Shown here piece after piece: positions 3,106 to 32,577 of a stretch of DNA of 62,538 nucleotides. Origin of the DNA: Robiginitomaculum sp. (GTDB lineage Bacteria; Pseudomonadota; Alphaproteobacteria; Caulobacterales; Maricaulaceae); assembly GCA_015485335.1 (NCBI GenBank), contig WFTT01000044.1:1-62538 (forward strand), given 5' to 3'. Position numbers and translations under genes: made by a program. How positions within the stretch are numbered: position 1 is the first letter of the stretch; every line of letters begins with the position of its first letter. The notes under the pieces were generated by a model, which saw only the letters and a program-made list of their open reading frames with translations, made no database searches and was not told the DNA's origin.

Positions 3106-3176
3106 GCCCTACCAATTGCAAAAGGCGCGCCGGAAAATCTGACCCGCTTTGGCAATCCTAGGCGATTAATACCCCA

Positions 3177-17621: not shown

Positions 17622-17767
17622 CAAATCGAACTGATTTTGTTAATCATTCGGGGTCAGGCACAAAAACTGTAATTCGTACAATTATTGTTGCCACGTTTAC
17701 GTGATCTCAAGGCGTCATGTGTAGGTTTGTGATGAAACCTGACACGTTTGAGATGGAGTTCACGTAT

Positions 17768-19114
17768 ATGCAAGCTCTTCGAGCCAGCATCGAAGCCTTG
17801 GAACCGCGCCGCTTTCGCGGCCGCGTTACAGCTGTTAACGGTCTGATGATCGAAGCCATAGGGCCGGCAGATGCGTTAGAGCTTGGGGCCCGTGCCACCG
17901 CCCAAACCCGTCATGGTGATATTGCCTGCGAAGTCGTGGGCTTTCGCGGTGATCATGCCCTTATGATGCCTTTTGGGCCGCTGGACGGTGTTCGCGCCGG
18001 AGCGCGCATGGAAATTAACCCCGAAGGCCCTTATGTGCGCCCCTCTTCGGCCTGGTTAGGCCGGGTGATTAATGCCTTTGGAAAGCCTATTGATAATGGC
18101 GGCGCTTTATTGCCGGGCCTGCATCCCTATCCGCTTCGTGGTCGCCCACCGGCACCCCATGCCCGGGCCCGGGTCGGCGCCCGCATGGATACCGGTGTAC
18201 GCGCTATCAATACCTTTACACAAATCTGCAAGGGCCAGCGCATGGGCGTATTTGCCGGCTCCGGGGTTGGTAAATCCGTCCTCATGTCCATGTTGGCACA
18301 AAATGCGGATTGCGATGTGGCGGTGATCGGGCTGATCGGGGAACGGGGCCGCGAGGTCAAGGAATTTATCGACGATGTTTTAGGGCCAGAGGGCATGAAA
18401 CGTACCGTCGTTGTGGTGGCCACATCGGACGAGCCGGCGCTGAGCCGGCGCCAAGCGGCGCAATTGACCCTGACTGTGGCGGAATATTTTCGCGATCAGG
18501 GCCAGCATGTGCTGTGCCTGATGGATTCGGTAACGCGCTTTGCCATGGCCCAGCGCGAAATCGGCCTGGCCGCCGGCGAGCCACCGACCACCCGCGGCTA
18601 TACCCCATCTGTGTTTAACGAGCTGCCGCGCCTTCTTGAGCGCGCTGGACCGGGCCGTCGCACCGATGGCCGCCCCGAGGGGGCCATTACCGGTATTTTC
18701 ACGGTGCTGGTGGATGGCGATGATCATAACGAGCCGATCGCCGATGCCACCCGCGGCATCCTTGATGGCCATATTGTGATGGAACGGGCCATTGCCGAAC
18801 GGGGCCGTTTTCCGGCCATCAATATTTTGAAAAGCATATCACGCACCATGCCCGGTTGCTGTGATGATGATGAAATCGAGCTGATCCGCACCGCGCGTCG
18901 CGCGCTTAGTGATTATGCCGATATGGAAGAATTAATTCGTCTGGGCGCCTATGCCCGCGGATCTAATGCCGGTGTGGATCGTGCCATAGAATTACACGAC
19001 CCGCTGGAAGCGTTTCTGGGCCAGAATAAAGAAGAAGCCACGTCTTTGGACGATGGCTTCCAACGTCTGGCCGAGATTTTGGGTGATAGTAATAGCCTCA
19101 ATAACGAGGCATAA
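17768..19114 (+). CDS. fliI: flagellum-specific ATPase FliI
   Basis: The 448-residue F1-beta-like ATPase has Walker [12 protein letters not shown] (about residues 168-178), Walker [19 protein letters not shown] and the export-ATPase pattern [14 protein letters not shown]. It drives unfolding and entry of substrates into the flagellar export gate. The frame opens at 17717, but 17768 follows GATGGAG and gives the usual family length. It is divergent from ctrA across a 245-base regulatory gap and is followed by fliJ. Confidence 0.95.
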
Positions 19115-19126
19115 TGGAGGGGTATA

Positions 19127-19534
19127 ATGCGTAATTTTGCATCCCTGGTAAAACTGGCACGGTTCAAGGTCGAAGAACTGCAAAAACAAATGGGCGCGCT
19201 GGATGAGGCACGCGCCCATCTGGAAAGCCGCGCCGCGGACCTGGAACGCAGCGTGCCTGAAGAGCAGGTGGCTGCTGATGAAAGCCGCGAAGGGTTTATG
19301 GCCTATGGCTCCTATGCCCAGGCCGTGATCGAGCGCAAAAACAATTTGCGTGCTTCGATGATCGAACTGGATGCCCAGACCGCGGCTTTACGCGTGCAAT
19401 TGGAAGAAGCCTTTTTAGAGCTGAAAAAGTTTGAACTGATGGAAGAGCGCCGCCTGGCCCGCCTTGCGCAGGCACGCAACAAGGCCGAACAGGACGAGCT
19501 GGACGAAATCGCCGGCAAACGTGCCGCGCGTTAA
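19127..19534 (+). CDS. fliJ: flagellar export chaperone FliJ
   Basis: The 135-residue protein is almost entirely coiled coil, with heptads such as LVKLARFKVEELQKQM and LEEAFLELKKFELMEERR. This is the typical look of FliJ, which sits in the centre of the FliI hexamer and contacts FlhA. The sequence itself is weakly conserved, so the call rests on its position 12 bases after fliI, its length and the coiled coil. GGAGG precedes the start. The stop overlaps the convergent gene by four bases. Confidence 0.85.
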   Translation: MRNFASLVKLARFKVEELQKQMGALDEARAHLESRAADLERSVPEEQVAADESREGFMAYGSYAQAVIERKNNLRASMIELDAQTAALRVQLEEAFLELKKFELMEERRLARLAQARNKAEQDELDEIAGKRAAR

Positions 19535-19854
19535 CTCTCGGATCCCAACAGACGCTTGAACGTCAAAATGACTGAAATTGCGGCAAAATAAAGTACCATC
19601 CGCAAGGCAATCGCAGCCCCGCCATCACGCATTAAATGCGTGGTGGCCGCTTCGCGTGCCAGGCTTGCATCAAATCCCTGACTGATTTCCAATACCCAGG
19701 GCCAGGCCATATCAGCACCCAGGGCCAGCAAGACCGCCAGCCAGATGCGCGAGAACTGGCCCGTGGCCAGCCCAATAATGGCGGCAATACCGGCGCATAC
19801 CCCCAATTCCCCCGGCGCAAACGCAATATCACTGATCAGTTTCAAGGTTTCCAT
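19531..19854 (-). CDS. small membrane protein, paralogue of the next gene
   Basis: The 107-residue protein (start chosen at the Met before ETLKLIS; the frame opens at 19884) has three hydrophobic segments and ends with ALRMVLYFAAISVILTFKRL. It shares this C-terminal pattern and the N-terminal FAPGELG with the protein at 19929-20252 (LVRMLVYFSAISLLFGTK and FTPADLV). The two are therefore tandem duplicates with diverged sequence. Function is unknown. Its place at the end of the fliF-flhA operon suggests a link to export-gate assembly, but this is inference. Confidence 0.7.
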   Translation of the reverse strand: METLKLISDIAFAPGELGVCAGIAAIIGLATGQFSRIWLAVLLALGADMAWPWVLEISQGFDASLAREAATTHLMRDGGAAIALRMVLYFAAISVILTFKRLLGSES

Positions 19855-19928
19855 CACTACCCCCATGGTCTCAATTGCGAACAATCAGAAGGGGGGTACG
19901 CAAACTTCAGGCCAGAAGGCCATAGGCT

Positions 19929-20252
19929 TTACCGACGGCCATAGGCCGCCTTGGTGCCAAAAAGCAGGCTGATCGCCGAAAAGTAAACCAGCATACGTAC
20001 CAGCAGGGCGACACTGGAATATCCCGCCAGCCGGGTCCAGCTGGCTGCCATGGCATCGCCCACCGGCGCCCCGGTCAGCAGAGCAAATAGCCCCGGCAGC
20101 ATGTAATCCACTGCCGTGGCAATAAACACCGTGACGATGATGTGGCCGTAATTACGCATCGCCCCGGCGCAAACCAGCGAAATGGCACTGATCAACACCA
20201 GATCAGCGGGCGTAAAACTCTGTTCCATGATGGAAAGGACACTCGGGTTCAT
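19929..20252 (-). CDS. small membrane protein directly after flhA
   Basis: The 107-residue protein has three hydrophobic segments and a conserved-looking RMLVYFSAISLLFGTKAAYG end. Its start codon shares a base with the flhA stop codon (TAATG), so the two are translationally coupled; Met9 at 20228 is an alternative start. It is a diverged paralogue of the protein at 19531-19854. No family name is recognised. Co-translation with flhA suggests a role in the flagellar basal body or in membrane organisation around it. Confidence 0.72.
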   Translation of the reverse strand: MNPSVLSIMEQSFTPADLVLISAISLVCAGAMRNYGHIIVTVFIATAVDYMLPGLFALLTGAPVGDAMAASWTRLAGYSSVALLVRMLVYFSAISLLFGTKAAYGRR

Positions 20253-22360
20253 TATACCTGCCCCACTACTTTTAAACGTGCTTTTGGATAAATTTCATTT
20301 TGCGACATCACGATCGTCTGGCCACGAAAACGCTCGATGATGGAACGCACATAGGGGCGGATCGCCGGTGAGGTCAGCAGAACCGGCGCATCGCCAGCCT
20401 CGGCCGCCGCATCAAAGCTGTCGCGCACCCGGTTGATAAATTCATGCAGTTTGGAGGGCGGCAAGGCCAATTGCCGGTTGTCCCCCTCCCCGATCAGGTT
20501 TTCGGCGAAGGCCTGTTCCCATTCCGGCGACAGGCCCAGCATGGGCAAGGTGCCATCGGGGGCCGCCGCCGCATGGCATAATTGCCGCGCCAGACGGGTG
20601 CGCACATGTTCGATAATCGCCCCCAGATTCTGGGTGGTGGCACTGGCCTCGGCAATGGCTTCCAAAATGGCGGGCAGATCGCGAATGGAAACGCGCTCTT
20701 TGAGAAGCCCCTGCAAGACCTGTTGAATGCCCGAGCGGCTGATTTGCGAAGGACTGATCTCTTCGAGCAGTTTTTTATCTTCCTTGCCCAGACCCTCGAG
20801 CAGTTTTTCGGTTTCCGCAAAGGACAGAAGGTCCGGCATGTTATCGCGCAAAATTTCGGTCAAATGAGTGGCCAGCACGGTGGCTGGATCAACCACGGTT
20901 AGCCCTTTGAACATGGCTTCTTCGCGCAAGGATTCGGTGACCCAGGTGGCCGGCAGCCCGAAGGTCGGCTCTTTGACATGATCGCCGGGTAAATCCACTT
21001 GCGCCCCGGCCGGATCCATAACCAGCAAATGGCCCAATTTTAACATGCCCGCGCCCGCCTCGATCTCTTTGACGCGCACCATATAATCATCGGCTTTGAG
21101 CTGCATATTATCCAATATGCGCACCGGCGGCATGACAAAGCCCATCTCCTGCGCCATCTGGCGGCGCAAGGCCTTGATCTGATCGGTCAGCCGACGCCCT
21201 TCCATATCATTGATCAAGCTTAAGAGATTATAACCAAGTTCAATCTTCAGGCCGTCGATATGCAGGCTTTCGGTGATTGGCTGCTCTTCGTTTTCGCTTT
21301 CCTTGGCCTCTGCAGCGGTGGCCACATCCGCCTTGGTTTTTTCCGCGGCTTTACGTTGATGCAGAACCCAGGCACCACCGCCCAGCAACACAGACATCAG
21401 CGCAAAGGGTACAAAGGGCATGCCCGGCATCAGGGCCGCAATCAGGCTGATCCCGGCCACAATGATCAGGCCCTGCGGGTAACCGGTGAACTGCGAGAAA
21501 ATGGCCTTGTCGGCAGCCCCTTCAACCCCGGCCTTAGAGACCAGCAGGCCCGCCGCAATGGAAATGACCAACGCCGGGATCTGGCTGACCAGACCGTCAC
21601 CAATGGTCAACATGGTATAATTTGACGCCGCCTGGGCAAAAGGCATGCCCTCTTGACCCACGCCAATAATCATGCCGCCAATAATATTGATGGCGGTGAT
21701 CAACAGACCCGCCACCGCATCACCACGTACAAATTTCGAGGCACCATCCATGGAGCCGTAAAAATTGGACTCGGCCTCCAGATCCTTGCGCTTTTGCCGG
21801 GCTTCATCTTCTTTCAAAAGACCCGAGCTGAGATCCGCATCAATAGCCATTTGCTTGCCGGGCATGGCATCCAGAGAGAAGCGTGCCGCCACCTCGGCAA
21901 TACGGCCAGAGCCCTTGGTGATCACCACAAAATTGACGATCACCAGAATGATAAAGACAATAATGCCGATAACGTAATTACCCTGGGTAATCAGCGCCCC
22001 AAAGCCGCGAATAATCTGCCCGGCCGCATCGGGTCCCTGGGAACCATCAGACAAGATCAGGCGCGTAGAGGCCAGGTTCAAGCCCAACCGCAACATGGTC
22101 GCAATCAGCAAAACCGCCGGAAATGCACTGAATTCCAGTGGCTTTTGAATGAAGAGTGCCGTCATCAGCACCATAATGGAAAAAGAAATGGAAACCGCCA
22201 GAGCCATGTCCAAAAGCCAGGATGGCATGGGCAGGATCAGCATCATCAAAATCGCAACAATGCCAATCGCCAAAGCCACATCACCACGCAGAATGGCGTT
22301 GGAGAATTTCTTGGAATCAAATCCGGTTGTTGCGGTTGTTATGCCTGAAGATTCAGCCAT
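20252..22360 (-). CDS. flhA: flagellar export-gate protein FlhA
   Basis: The 702-residue protein has eight transmembrane helices in the first 330 residues, including the FHIPEP-type signature region GSGRIAEVAARFSLDAMPGK, followed by the large cytoplasmic domain that docks chaperones and FliJ. It is the proton-driven core of the export gate. It lies in the fliF operon, 31 bases after flbD. Length and motifs are ordinary. The other gate genes (flhB, fliP, fliQ, fliR) are not in the window. Confidence 0.97.
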   Translation of the reverse strand: MAESSGITTATTGFDSKKFSNAILRGDVALAIGIVAILMMLILPMPSWLLDMALAVSISFSIMVLMTALFIQKPLEFSAFPAVLLIATMLRLGLNLASTRLILSDGSQGPDAAGQIIRGFGALITQGNYVIGIIVFIILVIVNFVVITKGSGRIAEVAARFSLDAMPGKQMAIDADLSSGLLKEDEARQKRKDLEAESNFYGSMDGASKFVRGDAVAGLLITAINIIGGMIIGVGQEGMPFAQAASNYTMLTIGDGLVSQIPALVISIAAGLLVSKAGVEGAADKAIFSQFTGYPQGLIIVAGISLIAALMPGMPFVPFALMSVLLGGGAWVLHQRKAAEKTKADVATAAEAKESENEEQPITESLHIDGLKIELGYNLLSLINDMEGRRLTDQIKALRRQMAQEMGFVMPPVRILDNMQLKADDYMVRVKEIEAGAGMLKLGHLLVMDPAGAQVDLPGDHVKEPTFGLPATWVTESLREEAMFKGLTVVDPATVLATHLTEILRDNMPDLLSFAETEKLLEGLGKEDKKLLEEISPSQISRSGIQQVLQGLLKERVSIRDLPAILEAIAEASATTQNLGAIIEHVRTRLARQLCHAAAAPDGTLPMLGLSPEWEQAFAENLIGEGDNRQLALPPSKLHEFINRVRDSFDAAAEAGDAPVLLTSPAIRPYVRSIIERFRGQTIVMSQNEIYPKARLKVVGQV

Positions 22361-22391: not shown

Positions 22392-23771
22392 TCAGGCAAT
22401 GGCCCCCACATCTATATTGCCATTGCCCCCCGGCATGGGCACAGAAACCCCATGGTCTGCATAGATTTTGAGCTTGTTCCGTAGCGTCCGGATGGAAATA
22501 CCCAATATATTGGCCGCATGGGTACGATTGCCCAGACAATGGGACAGGGTATCCAGAATAAGATCCTGTTCCACCTGTGCCACGGTCAGGCCAACGGCTC
22601 GTTGGGTAGAAACCTGGGCCGCCTCGGCCGCGCTGGCGACCACGCCGCGCGGGGCCGCATCGCCCAGCTTGGTACCGTCCGGGGCACGCAGGGCATCGGG
22701 GCCGATTTCATCACCTTCGGCCAGCAAAACGGCACGATGAATGGCGTTTTCCAGCTCGCGCACATTGCCCGGCCATTGCCGGTTCAGCAGAACATGGCGG
22801 GCGGCCTCGGAAATAGGTCGGGCCGGCACCCCATTGGCGGCGGCATAGCGGGTGGCAAAATAATCGGCCAGAGCCGCAATATCGCCCGGGCGGTCACGCA
22901 AAGGCGGCAGTTTCAGATTGACCACATTCAGACGGAACAACAAATCCTCGCGGAAACTACCATCGCGCACGGCCTCGGTCAGATCCCGGTTGGAGGTGGC
23001 CAGAATACGAATATCCACCTTTACCGGCTTTGAGCCACCTACCCGGTCAATTTCGCGTTCTTGAATGGCACGCAACAGCTTGGCCTGGAGACGGGCATCC
23101 ATTTCCGAAATTTCGTCCAGTAGAAGCGTGCCACCATCGGCCTCTTCAAATTTACCGATGCGGCGGGCAATGGCCCCGGTAAAGGCTCCTTTTTCATGGC
23201 CGAACAGCTCGGATTCGAGCAAATTATCCGGAATGGCCGCACAATTGATGGAAATGAACGCCTTGTCCGCCCGTTTGGATTTTTCATGAACATAGCGCGC
23301 CATCACTTCCTTGCCTGAACCGGATTCGCCAGTGATCAGGATGGAGGCATTGGAGGGCGCAATCTGGTCGGCCAGCGCCACCACCTGGCGGATCACCGGA
23401 TCGCGTGCAATCATCGGACGCTCATCATCGGCGACGGCGGCCAGCACCGCCGCAATCAGATCTGTATCCGGCGGCAGAGGAATAAACTCCTTGGCCCCGG
23501 CACGAATGGCGGCGGCGGCGGCCGCTGGCGTTGCCGATACCCCGCAAGCCACAATCGGCACATGGATACGTTCTTTTTTCAAAGCATCAGCCAGAGAGCC
23601 GATATCATTGCCTATGTCGGCCATCAAAAGGTCTGCGCCCTGCCCGGCGCGCAGCGCTTTCATCGCCGCTTCAACACTCTCTACATGGGCTACCTTGGCT
23701 CCATTATTTATGGCTATTTTAGTGGCTTCGCCGAGCTGTCCGCCCAAACTACCGATAATCAAAACCCGCAT
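22392..23771 (-). CDS. flbD: sigma-54 activator FlbD
   Basis: The 459-residue protein has an atypical receiver (MRVLIIGSLGGQLGEATKIA, no acidic pair, FIPLPPD in place of the usual KPF). It then has an AAA+ sigma-54 activator domain with Walker A TGESGSGKEV, the GAFTGA loop and Walker B DGGTLLLDEISEM, and a Fis-type helix-turn-helix (THAANILGISIRTLRNKL). The receiver closely resembles Caulobacter FlbD, which activates late flagellar genes and represses fliF. Its position between fliN and flhA in the fliF operon matches that role. Confidence 0.95.
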   Translation of the reverse strand: MRVLIIGSLGGQLGEATKIAINNGAKVAHVESVEAAMKALRAGQGADLLMADIGNDIGSLADALKKERIHVPIVACGVSATPAAAAAAIRAGAKEFIPLPPDTDLIAAVLAAVADDERPMIARDPVIRQVVALADQIAPSNASILITGESGSGKEVMARYVHEKSKRADKAFISINCAAIPDNLLESELFGHEKGAFTGAIARRIGKFEEADGGTLLLDEISEMDARLQAKLLRAIQEREIDRVGGSKPVKVDIRILATSNRDLTEAVRDGSFREDLLFRLNVVNLKLPPLRDRPGDIAALADYFATRYAAANGVPARPISEAARHVLLNRQWPGNVRELENAIHRAVLLAEGDEIGPDALRAPDGTKLGDAAPRGVVASAAEAAQVSTQRAVGLTVAQVEQDLILDTLSHCLGNRTHAANILGISIRTLRNKLKIYADHGVSVPMPGGNGNIDVGAIA

Positions 23772-23799: not shown

Positions 23800-24186
23800 T
23801 CAGGTGCTGGTCACTGAATCTTTAATAATTTCTGTCATAGTGACCCCAAGTTGTTCGTCCACAATCACCACTTCACCACGCGCCACGATCCGGTTGTTGA
23901 CATAAATATCAATGGCCTCGCCCACTTTTCTGTCCAGCTCCAATATCGAACCACGACTGAGCGCCAGCAGTTCGTTCACATTGATTTTGGTTTTACCCAG
24001 CACAGCAGATATACGCACCGGCACATCATAAACCGGGGCCAGGTCAACGGCGGTTTTAGGCTCTTCATCCTCGGCAATGGCCGCTGGTGGTGCCGCGATC
24101 GGTTCTTCTGCAGGCGTTTGATCTTCCGGTACGTCTCCCGGCTGATCAAAGTCCTGCAGTTCAATATCTGATTCATTATCGGACAT
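23800..24186 (-). CDS. fliN: flagellar switch protein FliN
   Basis: The 128-residue protein has a disordered acidic N-terminal half and a C-terminal SpoA domain (about residues 50-125) with YDVPVRISAVLGKTKINVNE, SRGSILELDRKVGE and GEVVIVDEQLGV. It forms part of the C-ring that controls export docking and rotation switching. The acidic N-terminal extension is typical of alphaproteobacterial FliN. It lies between fliH and flbD. fliM is absent from this window. Confidence 0.95.
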   Translation of the reverse strand: MSDNESDIELQDFDQPGDVPEDQTPAEEPIAAPPAAIAEDEEPKTAVDLAPVYDVPVRISAVLGKTKINVNELLALSRGSILELDRKVGEAIDIYVNNRIVARGEVVIVDEQLGVTMTEIIKDSVTST

Positions 24187-32381: not shown

Positions 32382-32561
32382 ACACCTCAGCAAAAGCCGG
32401 GCCAACTTGAACTGATTATATTATAACTTATATTTCAACATGTTACGAACTACGCCCACAGAGCATAGCGCAGTATTGCCGGGCGTTTTCTGCCCAGTTG
32501 CGCATATTTGCCGGGGTCATTGGCACCGGCAAATAATGGATTGCATCAGGGAAAGCGACAC

Positions 32562-32577
32562 TTGGCCCATCCCTTGC
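32562..32577 (+). promoter_or_regulatory. candidate sigma-54 promoter for flgK
   Basis: TTGGCCCATCCCTTGC has GG at 32564-32565 and GC at 32576-32577, the required ten-base spacing, with TTGC intact at -12. Transcription would start near 32589, giving a leader of about 170 bases before flgK. FlbD encoded at 22.4 kb would be the likely activator. Confidence 0.45.

Follow-up and report, generated by a model that had tools for sequence, protein, structure and literature searches.

Tandem copies of a small, predicted membrane protein family beside flhA in a Robiginitomaculum flagellar locus

Introduction

Small membrane proteins encoded beside flhF and flhG (genes for flagellar positioning), such as FipA and FlgV, have recently been found to control where and how flagella are built. 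Closest in genomic slot to the genes described here is FipA of Gammaproteobacteria (PMC11620751, PMC12826062). It is encoded just downstream of an operon holding flhA, flhF and flhG, combines one transmembrane (TM) helix with a cytoplasmic DUF2802 domain and has been reported solely from genomes that also encode FlhF and FlhG (PMC11620751). FlgV is the closest in kind. In Borrelia (BB0268) it is described as a small inner-membrane protein encoded right after flhF-flhG, and in many phyla its gene is part of the flhF-flhG section of the flagellar operon; it acts at the basal body, and Alphaproteobacteria are not among the taxa listed for it (PMC11607428). Type-1 FlgV has two TM helices, a conserved arginine within the last of these and a polar cytoplasmic tail (PMC11607428), and in H. 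pylori FlgV is reported as a ring near the junction of the MS- and C-rings (PMC10655999). FliQ and FliO are small membrane proteins of the flagellar export gate, FliO being described as one TM helix plus a cytoplasmic beta domain (PMC12403147).

Here, a 62,538-nt stretch of Robiginitomaculum sp. (GCA_015485335.1, contig WFTT01000044.1; the window) was analysed, in which two small genes, A and B, lie downstream of flhA. A preliminary description had presented them as a duplicated, undescribed part of the flagellar or export-gate neighbourhood, an interpretation that is partly supported by the results below.

Gene content of the flhA region

On the minus strand, fliN (23800-24186; PF01052, E 3.1e-24) is followed by a gene for a sigma-54 activator with AAA+ and Fis-type HTH domains (22392-23771; PF00158, E 2.4e-69; PF02954, E 6.6e-14), flhA (20252-22360; TIGR01398, E 1.6e-272, above cut-off), A (19929-20252) and B (19531-19854). 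The activator is FlbD-like, and its position suggests FlbD. On the plus strand, fliI (17717-19114; PF00006, PF18269) and fliJ (19127-19534; PF02050, E 5.7e-8) converge with B, the stop codons of B and fliJ overlapping at 19531-19534. The highest-identity named match of the window FlhA (68%) is from an Oceanicaulis MAG.

A and B each encode a 107-aa protein, and the paralogy proposed for them holds, with the genes on the minus strand: the two proteins align ungapped (BLASTP E 9e-9; 26/98 residues identical, 27%), a likeness that exceeds chance, and A as query against the whole genome (G000) returned only itself and B (E 5e-6). Both proposed motifs are present in each protein, FxPx(D/E)L near the N-terminus (FTPADL, FAPGEL) and RM(L/V)(V/L)YF(S/A)AIS at the C-terminus. 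The start of A overlaps the stop of flhA (TAATG, 20250-20254), as first noted, and this junction is TAATG or TGATG at 10/10 A genes of the window’s genus. For B, an in-frame TTG at 19884 would give a longer frame (19531-19884, minus strand; 117 aa). This start is unlikely, and the ATG at 19854 is preferred because it is kept in relatives, has GGGGG just 5′ and leaves room for a promoter-like element at 19900-19914. Ratios of non-synonymous to synonymous polymorphism (pN/pS) were 0.015-0.41 across all 36 pairs of nine A genes and 0.07-0.35 across all 15 pairs of six B genes, so both are under purifying selection; codon-usage scores, read without a null distribution, were positive for both. Together these values support A and B as real coding genes.

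Family membership and predicted structure

A and B belong to an alphaproteobacterial family, here called X, and both this membership and the flagellar location of the family’s genes are well supported. No Pfam family was matched above cut-off by A, B or six other members, and no NCBIfam model matched A or B at E up to 1. DUF4396 was considered for B and dropped (E 0.0059; 17.4 bits, cut-off 27). A PDB sequence search with the family profile A2 (28 rows) returned nothing at E up to 10, and Foldseek found no PDB match at E 0.001 or better for models of A and B, nor any BFVD match at that threshold for the model of A. No description of the family was found in the open-access literature, in a search of limited reach. 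Absence from Pfam and NCBIfam does not prove novelty; ‘undescribed’ holds for the libraries and literature searched.

AlphaFold2 models of A (pLDDT 78.9, pTM 0.61) and B (pLDDT 74.4, pTM 0.60) suggest three TM helices per protein, membrane placement being read from the models. In A, helices span residues 15-31, 35-59 and 80-105, in addition to a short N-terminal helix, and the stretch 64-77 is read as amphipathic; in B, residues 63-104 are drawn as one long helix. Mean charges over A2 fit an orientation with both loop 1 and the C-terminus on the inner side and loop 2, like the N-terminus, on the outer side; from sequence and models together, a topology is predicted in which the N-terminus faces outwards and a short basic C-terminus lies in the cytoplasm. 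R86 is found in 28/28 A2 rows and D49 in 27/28, while position 90 is Y in 25 rows and F in three; D49, R86 and Y90 are all predicted to be buried in the membrane.

Compared with FlgV, X proteins are also small inner-membrane proteins by prediction, and in most of the X-bearing relatives examined their genes take the cluster slot beside flhF-flhG, although in the window itself flhF and flhG were not found beside X. R86 of X, like the FlgV arginine, falls inside the last TM helix, a likeness of position only. X differs in having three helices and a very short basic tail in the models of A and B, not two helices and a polar tail. Alignment of A2 with A4 by hhalign gave a probability of 0.1% over one column, A4 being a thin set of four unvalidated FlgV-like proteins picked by eye after flhG in L108, L110, L112 and L116. 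With FipA, X shares its slot downstream of flhA, flhF and flhG, but neither A nor B matched DUF2802 at E up to 1, and X persists in the window’s genome without FlhF and without convincing FlhG. X thus fails one defining feature each of FlgV (helix number and tail) and FipA (DUF2802) and is filed as neither.

As small hydrophobic proteins adjoining flhA, A and B could also be extra or replacement subunits of the export gate, for instance FliQ-like ones, which we regard as very improbable. X has neither the profile nor the architecture of FliQ or FliO: neither protein matched PF01313 (FliQ) or another export family, three membrane helices are predicted, and no PDB match was obtained. Replacement of FliQ was rejected, as fliQ is encoded elsewhere in the same genome (contig C132, above cut-off).

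Distribution and genomic context of family X

Among the window’s own genome and 60 relatives, A2 matched 27/61. In the window’s genus (n=18) flhA was found in 15 genomes and flhF, with an FlhF N-terminal profile, in none; X is present in 14 of the 15 genomes with flhA and in 0/3 without it. The single exception (G005) has flhA at a contig edge, and X was not matched there. Both SRP-type GTPases of the window’s genome are accounted for by FtsY and Ffh, each above its curated cut-off. FlhG was sought in 36 genomes with a 64-residue N-terminal piece. Its scores were 1.4e-19 and 1.2e-17 for the two searched members of the family that have flhG, but no better than 1.5e-7 to 1.7e-5 for four order relatives with flhF (G040, G043, G044, G048), so this query can miss or under-score distant FlhG. 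With it, the window’s genome gave no convincing match, only two weak ones, neither on the window’s contig, whose best NCBIfam models were partition ATPases of the ParA/RepA kind and the iron-sulfur carrier ApbC, both below cut-off. Absence of FlhG from the genus is accordingly less firm than absence of FlhF. As flhF was undetected and flhG gave no convincing match, X abuts flhA in this genus.

In the rest of the family (n=19), flhF is found in nine genomes, and X follows flhG in 8/9; in the ninth (G033) flhA-flhF-flhG are present and no X was found between flhG and fliJ. The ten genomes without flhF, six of which have flhA, contain no X (0/10). Five family members (G018, G024, G027, G032, G036) carry a lower-scoring type of flhA, which may belong to a different flagellar system, and neither flhF nor X was found in them. 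In another (G031, L172) flhA has an in-frame stop and only its 3′ part was matched; the adjoining flhF, flhG and X look full-length. Of the 24 order-level relatives, 18 have flhF, with no X seen beside it. Matches to the family occur in 5/24 (G040, G042, G052, G058, G060): those of G040, G052 and G060 lie on other contigs than flhF or 300 kb away, G042 and G058 gave no FlhF match, and the G042 member is near coaBC-dut genes.

In a class-level sample, A2 matched 16/387 genomes. Besides the window’s own, 14 of the 15 matched genomes have a member in a flagellar locus, G042 being the exception, and in 12 of these 14 it adjoins, or is one small gene away from, flhG, flhF or flhA. In G135 it lies 3 kb from fliJ-fliI, and in G158 after flhG at a contig end. 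Counting the window’s own, the flagellar slot is kept across seven family-level groups. At 80 named flhA loci (18 with titles outside Alphaproteobacteria, nine with uninformative titles and at least three ending within 0.5 kb of flhA), X was present at two, those of the Oceanicaulis MAG (E 5e-29) and Parvibaculum sedimenti (E 2.5e-11), the next match having E 0.65; in P. sedimenti HXT-9 (L094) a single X gene ends the order flhA-flhF-flhG-X. Profile A5 matched 4/299 genomes of a phylum sample, namely the window’s own and three others of its order. At most 16 candidates per genome were scored in the phylum search and at most 12 in the class searches, which limits sensitivity. X is patchy and, within the sampled genomes, alphaproteobacterial.

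Where X occurs in the sampled Alphaproteobacteria, the usual order is fliN-flbD-flhA-flhF-flhG-X, with fliJ-fliI convergent. FliN, FlhA, FliJ, FliI, LemA, DUF2207, the carboxylase genes, the CoaBC C-terminal domain and dUTPase were named by Pfam, and FlhF and FlhG by SRP54-type and MinD-type domains and position; in L042, FlhF was the best NCBIfam model, yet below cut-off. Homologues near flhA, whose absence elsewhere would have counted against the preliminary description, were recovered by the search for linked copies in other Alphaproteobacteria that it had proposed, and its assignment to the flagellar neighbourhood stands, X being found in the flagellar loci of relatives. A particular link with flhA or the export gate has weaker support, since outside the window’s genus the usual upstream neighbour is flhG or flhF. 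X was found next to flhA in loci that have neither flhF nor flhG, those of the window’s genus and of G331 (L178; checked at the locus only).

This arrangement raises the possibility that X is a dedicated membrane partner of FlhF and FlhG, setting flagellar position or number as a counterpart of FipA, and that it is a relic or has been re-used in the window’s genus. The slot directly after flhG, the restriction of X in the family outside the genus to genomes with flhF (8/9 with, 0/10 without) and the similar position of FipA, just downstream of the flhA, flhF and flhG operon (PMC11620751), all point this way. We nevertheless hold this role to be doubtful: the window’s genus and G331 keep X though flhF and flhG are missing from the locus, in the genus X is duplicated and under purifying selection, and in three species of one genus (G068, G182, G394) X follows flhF, no flhG having been matched between the two. 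Retention of X, apparently without FlhF and FlhG, counts against a role that depends on them.

Some members lie away from flagellar genes, so the fold is not necessarily a flagellar one. In four relatives (L130-L133) acyl-CoA (methylcrotonyl-type) carboxylase genes flank tandem pairs, and single copies lie near carboxylase (L035/L153) or coaBC-dut genes (L036/L154). In this non-flagellar branch the column that is mostly D49 in flagellar members shows H, and R86 is not kept throughout. Within flagellar loci, lemA-DUF2207 is found after X and before fliJ-fliI in four family-level groups (L160-L162, L165, L166). The carboxylase and coaBC-dut settings, together with the adjoining lemA-DUF2207, would suit a protein of general function in the membrane or envelope that travels with the flagellar genes and has no direct role in the flagellum, a reading we consider unlikely given a slot kept across seven family-level groups, presence that tracks flhA in the genus and, before B, a promoter element of the type found before fliK and flgK.

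Promoter-like element upstream of B

A sigma-54-type -24/-12 element (TGGCCTGAAGTTTGC; 19900-19914, minus strand), additional to what the preliminary description reported, lies between A and B. It starts 56-62 nt upstream of the B start in 11/11 genomes with B, as [TC]GGC-N7-TTGC: the strict form TGGC-N7-TTGC is found at the 7/11 B genes from genomes with both A and B, and CGGC-N7-TTGC at four from B-only genomes, the first base of the pattern having been widened from T to [TC] after inspection of these four. B of G003 is cut by a contig end. At the density of such elements over genus sequence, about 0.01 occurrences are expected per 60 nt. The 11 genomes are related and not independent, although uncorrected synonymous differences reach 0.5-0.75 in most pairs. 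Within 200 nt upstream, the widened pattern was found at 0/10 A genes and 0/9 flhG-linked X genes, and the three regions that follow A in genomes with A only also lack it.

Across the window, 13 occurrences of the strict pattern compare with an expectation of 6.9 (sd 2.6), and the widened pattern occurs 22 times, four of these intergenic: upstream of B, fliK and flgK, and at 3118. Since single -24/-12 sites are common by chance, the case for the B element rests on conservation and position. The comparison elements are 48 nt upstream of fliK (32390-32404, minus strand) and 180 nt upstream of flgK (32563-32577, plus strand), within the divergent region between these two genes. Coupling to flhA, as originally noted, stands for A; B is not simply a second gene of the flhA operon, having its own conserved sigma-54-type element.

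The genome carries rpoN, and the gene upstream of flhA encodes a sigma-54 activator. In Caulobacter, FlbD is described as activating flagellar genes of the middle and late classes after the early structures have been completed (PMC3930126). Taken together with an element that is conserved at B and not seen at A, these points suggest that A is expressed early and B late in flagellar assembly. Between the element and the B start is an imperfect inverted repeat (GTTCGCAATTGAGAC; 19868-19882, minus strand), which in G015 and G016 is a perfect GTTYC-N5-RGAAC at the same position and is a possible operator.

Duplication of X

X is duplicated in the window’s genus. In a 47-row tree, rooted for drawing purposes only, 29 rows (10 A, 10 B, eight flhG-linked X of the family and the Oceanicaulis X) split off with support 97/96. 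Within them, support is 96/92 for a group of the A proteins and 100/99 for one of the B proteins (despite its label, row gB_G003_L007_1501 is of type A); the tree does not resolve how A, B and the flhG-linked copies branch from one another. A is found alone in G001 (a fragmented assembly), G009 and G010, and B alone in G013-G016. Both copies appear to be older than the genus and to have been lost differentially, which argues that two copies are not needed. Elsewhere, in a different family (f109; L160, 6242-6923), flhG is likewise followed by a tandem pair of X genes (E 2e-5 and 6e-29).

Discussion

Our preferred reading, held tentatively and at somewhat under even confidence, is that family X serves the flagellar basal body as an undescribed inner-membrane accessory of Alphaproteobacteria, present here in two copies, A and B, whose timing was split by duplication. 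It is favoured by the position of X in flagellar loci, by presence that tracks flhA and by conserved D, R and Y residues in the predicted helices; the tight flhA coupling of A is probably secondary. Against it, most flagellated relatives are without X, as in 78 of the 80 named flhA loci and in the 18/24 order relatives whose flhF has no adjoining X.

As such an accessory, X would pack in the membrane beside the MS ring or the FlhA gate, probably as an oligomer, and would aid assembly of the basal body or keep it in place, much like FlgV in other phyla. A would be made together with FlhA while the export gate assembles, and B only after the checkpoint of FlbD and sigma-54 opens the hook-stage genes, B then replacing or joining A in the later structure. 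A more specific proposal, which seems to us quite unlikely, is that X is the alphaproteobacterial counterpart of FlgV and forms a membrane ring at the basal body; in the window’s genus, after loss of the FlhF/FlhG switch, it would have become a two-part module whose copies, one produced early with FlhA and the other past the sigma-54 checkpoint, succeed or join each other during assembly.

X would be a candidate of the FipA/FlgV sort in Alphaproteobacteria, for which the literature searched gave no earlier example. A genus that keeps and duplicates X, apparently without FlhF and FlhG, would be a natural experiment on two usually entangled questions, whether such proteins serve the basal body itself or FlhF and FlhG. 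The proposed division of promoters into early (A) and late (B) gives a directly testable prediction.
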